This document shows, in pieces, positions 561-31,303 of a stretch of DNA of 64,000 bases. The stretch is from NCBI RefSeq assembly GCF_013839515.1, contig NZ_JACDNQ010000002.1:1-64000 (forward strand), read 5' to 3'. Under the pieces are notes generated by a model that saw nothing but the letters and a program-made list of their open reading frames with translations, was not told where the DNA came from and ran no database searches. The DNA is from Natronomonas salinimetallica (GTDB lineage Archaea; Halobacteriota; Halobacteria; Halobacteriales; Haloarculaceae). Made by a program: the position numbers and the translations under genes. Every line of letters begins with the position of its first letter. Position 1 is the stretch's first letter.

Positions 561-674
561 TGATACTGACGGACAAAAGAATGTACACACGACGCACGAG
601 GATCACGCCGTTCGACGGAGCGAACGGCGAATCACTCGTGAGTCGGTTTCATTTGATTTCGTCCACCAGTATGA
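561..674 (+). repeat. 114-bp MITE-like element, copy 1
   Basis: Nearly identical (112 of 114 bases) to 30485-30598, which is in the opposite orientation. Ends are imperfect inverted repeats: TGATACTGACGGAC at 561-574 against GTCCACCAGTATGA at 661-674 (11 of 14 positions pair). A central perfect stem has arms CGCCGTTCG (606-614) and CGAACGGCG (621-629). No transposase is encoded and no clear target-site duplication is seen. It ends 43 nt before the start codon of the pilin-like gene at 718, so it could supply or alter that gene's promoter. Confidence 0.75.
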
Positions 675-2944: not shown

Positions 2945-3405
2945 ACCGATTCCACCACCAGTTCCCCGTCGCTCTCGTCGTATCCGATACCGACAGGGCC
3001 GCCGCTGACGGTCACCCCCTCCACGTTGGTTTCGCTCCGAAACGCGACCGATACGACTACCTCGGGGTCCGAGGTCCGGAGTTCTACCGTTCCGACACTT
3101 TCGGTGCTGTCGTGGCTGATATCGATCGTATACCCGCCCGCGGCGGTTCGATCCTGGAGGTCGGATCGGAGCCCCAGTTCCGATAGGTCTTCGGCCCCTC
3201 CGGCCCGGACCAGCCGATCCGCACCCGAGAGTTCCGCGGCGAGTTGCTGGCCGACCACGGAGAGTTCGTCGTGGGTGACGGCCCGCGTCTGGCTCCGGAC
3301 CATCCCCGACCCGGCGATCAAGAGCGCCGAAAACAACATGGTGGCGATGGCGAGGTTCAACACGTAGCCGACCGCGATCGAGACACCTCGATCGTCGCTA
3401 TTCAT
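2941..3405 (-). CDS. Small pilin-like protein (DUF7266-type)
   Basis: The 154-residue product starts with a leader ending DDRGVSIAVGY, fitting a class III (prepilin-type) signal with the predicted cut after Arg-Gly, followed by one hydrophobic helix (about residues 9-33) and a soluble domain. Overlaps the genes on both sides (8 bp upstream, 4 bp downstream), so it belongs to the same transcript as the secretion ATPase. I associate the sequence with haloarchaeal DUF7266. Likely a minor pilin or pilus-tip component; that role is inferred from the signal and the operon. Confidence 0.72.
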   Translation of the reverse strand: MNSDDRGVSIAVGYVLNLAIATMLFSALLIAGSGMVRSQTRAVTHDELSVVGQQLAAELSGADRLVRAGGAEDLSELGLRSDLQDRTAAGGYTIDISHDSTESVGTVELRTSDPEVVVSVAFRSETNVEGVTVSGGPVGIGYDESDGELVVESV

Positions 3406-30101: not shown

Positions 30102-30437
30102 GTGGTGAAAGAAACCCAGGCCGTTCCCGTGATCGGCGGTAGAGACCGTTCGGTCTGGATCGCCGCGATCGTACTGTACGGGATCGGTGACACGGTCACA
30201 ACGTTTTGGGGGCTCTCGACGGGCGGCATCGCGGAGGCCGGGCCGATAGCCAAGCCACTCGTCGACATGTACGGGCCGTACGCCCTGATAGGTATCAAGG
30301 CCGTCGTCCTCCCGTCGTTTTATGTCATCTGGCGGGTGCTCCGAACGCCGGGGCGTATCGCCGTCCCGTTCGCGCTTGCGTTCGTCGGCGCCGTCGTTAC
30401 CGGGTGGAACCTGTTCGTCGTCGCGAGCGTTCTGTGA
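30102..30437 (+). CDS. Integral membrane protein (DUF5658-like)
   Basis: The 111-residue product has three to four hydrophobic segments (about 17-35, 55-75, 84-108). GDTVTTFWG and the AGPIAKPLV turn resemble the small haloarchaeal membrane family I know as DUF5658, where an Asp and Thr early in helix one are conserved. It starts with GTG at 30102 and probably shares a transcript with the 48-residue membrane protein just upstream. Function unknown. The 114-bp repeat, copy 2, begins 48 bp after its stop. Confidence 0.65.
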   Translation: MVKETQAVPVIGGRDRSVWIAAIVLYGIGDTVTTFWGLSTGGIAEAGPIAKPLVDMYGPYALIGIKAVVLPSFYVIWRVLRTPGRIAVPFALAFVGAVVTGWNLFVVASVL

Positions 30438-30484: not shown

Positions 30485-30598
30485 TCATACTGGTGGACGA
30501 AATCAAATGAAACCGACTCACGAGTGATCCGCCGTTCGCTCCGTCGAGCGGCGTGATCCTCGTGCGTCGTGTGTACATTCTTTTGTCCGTCAGTATCA
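30485..30598 (-). repeat. 114-bp MITE-like element, copy 2
   Basis: Reverse-complement partner of 561-674 with two substitutions in 114 bases; one falls in the central stem arm (T to C) and weakens it, the other lies just after the second arm. The ends TCATACTGGTGGAC (30485-30498) and GTCCGTCAGTATCA (30585-30598) are kept. It lies between a membrane protein gene and the hpt-like gene, outside any coding sequence. Confidence 0.75.
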
Positions 30599-30733
30599 TA
30601 CTGCCGGCGATCCGTGTTTGCTCGCCGTGACCGCCTCGATCGGACCGGTATTCGTGGGCGTTCGGCAAGCACGGCCACGTCCGGCGGTTCCCGCTGTCGT
30701 CGACTCGGACGCTACTGATCGATCCGTTCTCGG

Positions 30734-31303
30734 CTAGTCGTCCCCGGTCGGATCGACGATCACGACCTCGCCGTCCTCGACGGTGACATTTATCAGCGTC
30801 TTCGCACTGTACGCCGACTCGTCGAGTTTGTTCGAACCCTCTACTTTCTTGATGACGGCAACCACGTCGACGATGGATGCGCCGATGTCCTCGAGGGCGG
30901 CACAGATCGCGGAGAGCGTACCACCCGTCGAGAGCACGTCATCGAGGACGAGGACGCTGTCGCCCTCGTCGACGTCGTTTATGTACATCTGGCTCTCGGA
31001 GTAGCCGGTCTGTTGGAACAGCGGCGTCTCGCCCTCGAGGCCGTACTCCCGCTTCCGGATGACCACCAGCGGGATGTCGGTCATGAGCGAGACCGCCGTC
31101 GAGATATGGATCCCCATCGCGGCGGGCGTAACGATCTTATCGACGTTCTCGAGGCGGGCCTTCCGGATGATCTTGATGACGATCTCCCGAAGCAGGCTCG
31201 GTTCGAGCATCGGGACGCCGTCGCTGATCGGATGGACGAAGTAGTGGTAGTCGTCCTTCTCGACGATCGGCGAGTCGAGTAACGACCGCTGAAGCTGATC
31301 CAT
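30734..31303 (-). CDS. hpt: Hypoxanthine/guanine phosphoribosyltransferase-like protein
   Basis: A 189-residue purine salvage enzyme of the archaeal HGPRTase-like/APRT-fold family. The PRPP-binding motif [13 protein letters not shown] lies near residues 116-128, and PAAMGIHIS (about 60-68) forms the pyrophosphate loop region. Length and sequence match the haloarchaeal proteins annotated as HGPRTase-like; base specificity is not certain from sequence. It is transcribed toward the 114-bp repeat; no operon partner is evident. Confidence 0.85.

Follow-up and report, generated by a model that had tools for sequence, protein, structure and literature searches.

Two copies of a short inverted-end element in the window

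The window, a stretch of 64,000 nucleotides of Natronomonas salinimetallica DNA, contains two nearly identical copies of a short repeat in opposite orientations, at 561–674 (+) and 30485–30598 (−). They differ at two positions and have unrelated flanks, as the initial annotation had described. That annotation took the repeat to be a 114-bp element with exact ends. The ends are indeed the same in both copies, but the outer three bases on each side are the duplicated target; the element itself measures 108 bp, which together with two 3-bp target copies accounts for the 114 bp.

Copy 1, of the A type (TACTGACGGAC...GTCCACCAGTA), occupies positions 564–671 of the forward strand and is flanked by TGA on the left (561–563, +) and on the right (672–674, +). 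Its terminal inverted repeats, TACTGACGGAC at 564–574 (+) and GTCCACCAGTA at 661–671 (+), are complementary at 9 of 11 positions and thus imperfect, as had been noted. The central hairpin previously proposed is real: it comprises CGCCGTTCG-ACGGAG-CGAACGGCG at 606–629 (+) and forms the top of a fold-back that involves the whole element from end to end. The computed DNA fold has an energy of -30.3 kcal/mol (z -5.9), and none of 200 shuffled sequences folded as well. An end-to-end hairpin of this kind is typical of fold-back miniature inverted-repeat transposable elements (MITEs). The copy lies 43 bp before a pilin-like open reading frame (ORF) whose ATG is at 718, in agreement with the first description of the locus.

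Copy 2, likewise of the A type and 108 bp long, occupies 30488–30595 on the reverse strand and differs from copy 1 at the two positions mentioned. Its target copies, at 30485–30487 and 30596–30598 (both −), read TCA on the forward strand, so that in the orientation of the element both window copies are flanked by TGA. It is located between the convergent genes 30102–30437 (+) and 30734–31303 (−), and neither window copy sits in a stop codon. At 30599–30612 (+), copy 2 directly meets the end of a second superfamily member, TACTGCCGGCGATC, with which it has a TNA in common; this second element belongs to a type of roughly 79 bp that was found at further places. A-type copies abutting other superfamily elements, with a single TNA between them, were also observed at C25:30237 and C27:114626 (contig:position); an element already in place thus seems to offer its outer TNA as a target for the next. 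At the start of the window, the first ~90 bases (1–90) are identical to the end of contig C30 (start of locus L216); the two contigs probably adjoin or have a repeat in common.

Copy number, ends and target duplication

A search of the N. salinimetallica genome (2.78 Mb, 30 contigs) yielded 40 scored matches of 97–100% identity from 84 first-look candidates. There are 54 occurrences of the exact left end, ATACTGACGGAC, and 168 of the end motif TNATACTGNNGGAC, compared with none of the reversed control in either case, and the repeat count is far above chance. The genome holds at least 50 nearly identical copies, all of a single length of 108 bp, which lie in both orientations and in all gene contexts; the element has no coding capacity. 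Over 48 intact A-type copies, which comprise 21 distinct sequences, the mean pairwise identity is 98.2%, and on this measure the A type appears to have been amplified recently in this species. The near-identity of the copies points to a transposase that was active recently.

Insertion sites were read at 53 distinct places. The 50 intact copies start with TACTG, finish with GTA (nearly always CAGTA) and span 108 bp. The same TNA is present on both sides in 45 of them, in the context YTNAR, C or T being favored ahead of the TNA and A or G behind it. In the orientation of the element the target reads TCA, TGA, TAA or TTA, the T and the A being invariant. The remaining 5 of the 50 copies lack the 3-bp duplication; three of these are flanked by TA at either end, which would fit a duplication of 2 bp.

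Some copies are rearranged. In two of them, L049 (C1:100240) and L068 (C11:34425), the central part is inverted with respect to the outer arms, and the same central inversion is found at loci L158, L161 and L184 of a relative, G121, and hence in two species; it is as if the center had been flipped by recombination between inner inverted repeats. Near the start of contig C3 (L098, 73–190), the final 23 bases of the element, TCA included (TTTGATTTCGTCCACCAGTATCA), form five head-to-tail repeats. An A-type copy is interrupted at a contig break, at the end of C12 (L097 from 3985) and at the start of C3 (L098), by a sequence starting GGCTCTGTTGAATCACTAG, apparently an insertion sequence at which the assembly broke.

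Nested copies and empty sites

At C1:197513, an A-type copy lies within an element of a second type, B, in the arrangement GTGAATACC-TGA-element-TGA-ATCGTTCAG; intact B-type copies display the corresponding empty site (GTGAATACCTGAATCGTTCAG / GTGAATACCTGAATCGTT). Similarly, the C-type element at C12:120708 contains a B element flanked by a TTA duplication. An orthologous empty site was found for the copy at C5:66914, which is missing in G124, a relative from the same genus. There the two flanks, once joined, give an uninterrupted alignment of 536 bases with 78% identity, and the junction is the stop codon TAA of the gene for aspartate-semialdehyde dehydrogenase (asd). In many other relatives the asd alignment stops at or near that same stop codon. 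The paralogous and orthologous empty sites prove insertion.

MITEs are generally defined as elements under about 600 bp that do not code for a transposase, have inverted ends and produce a target duplication of fixed length. The present element is of such length, non-coding and bounded by inverted ends; it has a 3-bp duplication, a high copy number with homogeneous length, and empty sites. By the general definition it is a MITE, except that its parent was not identified. The reading as a mobile element that the initial annotation had offered is thus borne out by the many copies, the inverted ends, the target duplication in 45 of 50 cases, the nesting and the orthologous empty site. That annotation would have given it up for a longer coding gene family, or for a repeat with no other copies and no empty site in relatives; further copies and empty sites exist, and no coding gene family is involved.

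A superfamily seen in Halobacteria

The element is a member of a superfamily with ends TACTGnnGG... and lengths of 78–108 bp. At least three other types are present in N. salinimetallica; their ends are TACTGTCGGAC, TACTGCCGGAC (107 bp) and TACTGCCGGCGATA (about 79 bp). The same end rule holds in other haloarchaea at 78, 79, 95, 98, 99, 107 and 108 bp. The motif TNATACTGNNGGACG has at least one match in 72 of 146 genomes of the family, many single matches resembling coding sequence. The counts are highly uneven, with 185, 135, 119 (N. salinimetallica), 71, 69 and 56 in six genomes and 0–2 in most of the 146; in some haloarchaeal genomes the number of these ends thus exceeds 100. Among the family genomes, many A-type copies were found in one relative only, G121, another species of the genus, where they are more diverged, with 90–94% identity to the query, and are probably older.

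A search with the two-ended pattern against 84,980 prokaryote species genomes returned at least 110 stretches. Among the matches listed, 78 of 80 records are haloarchaeal by title, the other two coming from one metagenome-assembled genome labeled 'Euryarchaeota archaeon', and within this scope the superfamily was seen only in Halobacteria; the genera include Halostella, Salinadaptatus, Natronolimnohabitans, Halobellus, Natrinema, Natronorubrum, Natribaculum, Halococcus and Salinibaculum. The search of the same genome and of other haloarchaea suggested in the initial annotation has thus produced at least 50 copies in the former and cousins across Halobacteria. A plasmid of Natribaculum breve holds the 78-bp type at 14 places with the same TNA rule, and 80-bp cousins occur on plasmids of Haloarcula, Natribaculum, Halomicrobium, Halobellus and Haloplanus. 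The matches in viral contigs all lack a partner end and are apparently due to chance, and phage records contained no 80-bp cousin. No description of these elements was found in the literature searched.

Insertion in stop codons

Whichever base takes its middle position, the duplicated TNA reads as a stop codon on one of the two strands. Gene calls were heuristic, and loci from the same genome are only partly independent. On this basis, 7 of 58 classified insertions in N. salinimetallica (12%) coincide exactly with the stop codon of a coding-like ORF compared with 1.0% of YTNAR sites, and 30 of 103 insertions in other haloarchaea (29%) do so compared with 1.7%, the background being counted in the same loci as the insertions. 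Insertions inside genes are depleted, at 21% in N. salinimetallica and 13% in the others versus 43% and 46% of the sites. In the other haloarchaea, 30 of the 35 insertions at most 15 bases from a stop codon are at the stop itself.

A model based on the target motif and conditioned on positions outside genes predicts 3.6 stop-codon insertions in N. salinimetallica, where 7 were seen (p = 0.019). For the other haloarchaea, the same model of motif and gene avoidance predicts 11.5; 30 were seen, and none of 200,000 simulations reached that number. Gene avoidance and the target motif explain part of the excess at stop codons, and a 2–2.6-fold excess remains, which may reflect either selection against insertions in promoters and untranslated regions or true targeting.

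At least seven N. salinimetallica copies sit in stop codons of coding ORFs, six of these ORFs belonging to recognized ordinary families. Genes hit at the stop in this genome encode aspartate-semialdehyde dehydrogenase, a Usp protein, a DASH photolyase, MsrA, an IclR-type regulator and a ModE-like protein; in another genome, G107, the gene for PCNA is hit in the same way. A Pfam family was recognized in 7 of 8 tested genes with a hit stop, with alignments that reach or approach the C-terminus. The genes hit at their stop codons are real and end there.

What is new here is that the duplicated TNA is a stop codon and that insertions exactly in stop codons are in excess; a literature search on stop-codon insertion and on the end sequences returned nothing relevant. 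Regeneration of the stop presumably makes these insertions tolerated. The superfamily provides a simple and testable example of host protection by the target rule of a mobile element, the duplicated stop being a kept stop. It is conceivable, though on balance we doubt it, that this class-wide orphan superfamily is served by an undescribed transposase family that steers insertion into stop codons or the 3' ends of genes, where the TNA duplication would render it harmless; the geometry of the DNA, or a host factor located where transcription ends, could for example guide it. If true, such targeting would amount to a built-in safe-harbor strategy in archaea.

Proposed mobilization in trans and the search for a transposase

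The element is very probably a non-autonomous fold-back miniature transposon that is mobilized in trans and regenerates stop codons through its TNA duplication. A putative transposase acting in trans would recognize the ends TACTGnnGG.., cut the target with a 3-bp stagger at the TNA within YTNAR and join the element there, and repair would duplicate the TNA. Since one of the two strands always reads TAA or TGA at the TNA, an insertion in a stop codon would rebuild the stop at the junction and leave the protein unchanged. Stop regeneration would in turn lead the element to accumulate in stop codons and between genes and to be depleted inside genes. The ends, the fixed 3-bp duplication and the nesting point to an enzyme of the DDE type. 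As the parent was not found, enzyme and chemistry are deduced from the ends and the duplication only.

About 1.96 Mb of loci, some of them overlapping, revealed no autonomous transposon sharing the ends, such as the initial annotation had proposed to look for. In four MITE-rich genomes such ends are missing from the DDE_Tnp_1 loci, DDE_Tnp_1_2 is absent from seven MITE-rich genomes, and no transposase adjoins the solo ends at loci L087 and L088. Long pairs of ends (600–3,900 bp) with matching duplications were considered as parent candidates. The best of these, a 1,785-bp segment with perfect 14-bp ends in G107 (L237), turned out to consist of two separate MITEs of another type flanking the PCNA gene, and the other long pairs whose ends were checked were also separate MITEs. 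An IS5-like element was rejected as the parent since its end, TGCCTTGTTTTGCCGCC, differs from that of the MITE. The enzyme may be encoded outside the stretches examined; alternatively, it may come from a different family, or it may have been lost.

Several further repeats were observed at these loci. The IS5-like element is present in N. salinimetallica in two copies that are 90% identical, at L219 (C23:30272) and L216 (C30:114). In L237 of G107, another family of palindromic repeats (1390–1505 and 2460–2545; its ends include ATAGTGATTATTGTGA and ATACGGTCGTGCGTGA, and GTAAACAGTCAC lies internally) surrounds the PCNA gene along with three MITEs. In L088, at about 3290–3400, tandem repeats of ~18 bases (GTGTCAGTGATGGGTGGT) lie at the start of an ORF that adjoins a metal-transport ATPase-like gene.

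Comparison with known elements

Two explanations dispense with a mobile element of the MITE kind. The initial annotation had considered a conserved RNA or regulatory cassette held by selection and not mobile, a view with which the very stable end-to-end fold and the position of copy 1 upstream of the pilin-like gene would agree. A cassette of this sort does not account for target duplications, nesting and empty sites; the copies lie in both orientations and in all gene contexts, and Rfam covariance models gave no match up to E = 1. The proposal is thus unsupported and very improbable, although single copies may have acquired a later function. An element of the REP-like kind, which a Y1 transposase (IS200/IS605, TnpA-REP) mobilizes in single-stranded form, would likewise be small, strongly palindromic and mostly intergenic, as the present element is. 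To our knowledge, however, REP-like elements have neither a target duplication nor terminal inverted repeats of this kind, whereas a 3-bp duplication and such ends are found here, and we regard this origin as very improbable.

Elements of the IS5/IS1031 and PIF-Harbinger (Tourist-type) groups produce 3-bp target duplications of the TNA/TWA type. The present element resembles them in its TNA duplication, but no such transposase with these ends was found at the loci examined. Haloarchaeal MITEs that are mobilized by canonical insertion sequences have ends in common with a known insertion sequence (PMC3119063). The present family is similar in being non-coding, with inverted ends, a target duplication and a high copy number, but differs in that the loci examined yielded no insertion sequence ending in TACTGnnGG. 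Among bacterial MITEs, RUP is 107 bp long with about 108 copies, and most of the bacterial elements reviewed along with it have TA at their termini (PMC2229807); MITEAba12 is 113 bp long, has 9-bp duplications without a sequence trend and derives from the parent ISAba12 (PMC6382973). Both are comparable in size, inverted ends, target duplication and abundance, but the portions of these two sources consulted describe no stop-codon preference for them (PMC2229807, PMC6382973).

The closest resemblance is to the short mobile repeats of Haloquadratum walsbyi, SMR-A and SMR-B (HqIRS40-43 and HqIRS55), which are ~80–110 bp long with prominent inverted ends, reach up to 54 copies per genome and are commonly >95% identical within a type (PMC3119063). 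No transposase was found for them, their mobilization was called enigmatic, no target duplication was reported, and the target of SMR-A is the near-terminal palindromes of IS605-type elements and PATEs (PMC3119063). The likeness in size, inverted ends, copy number, identity, haloarchaeal host, lack of a recognized transposase and insertion into other mobile elements would favor placing the present element among these repeats. As described, however, SMRs are set apart by the TNA duplication seen here, by the many sites in stop codons of ordinary genes or between genes, and by the distribution over many genera; moreover, the one Haloquadratum plasmid inspected, PL47, holds no such repeat. Outright membership is therefore rather unlikely, and we classify the element as belonging to a MITE-like orphan superfamily that is closest to the Haloquadratum repeats and has a clear target duplication. 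The findings bear on how those repeats move: one may speculate that, if SMRs had been bounded as ATACTG...CAGTAT, a TNA duplication could have escaped notice.
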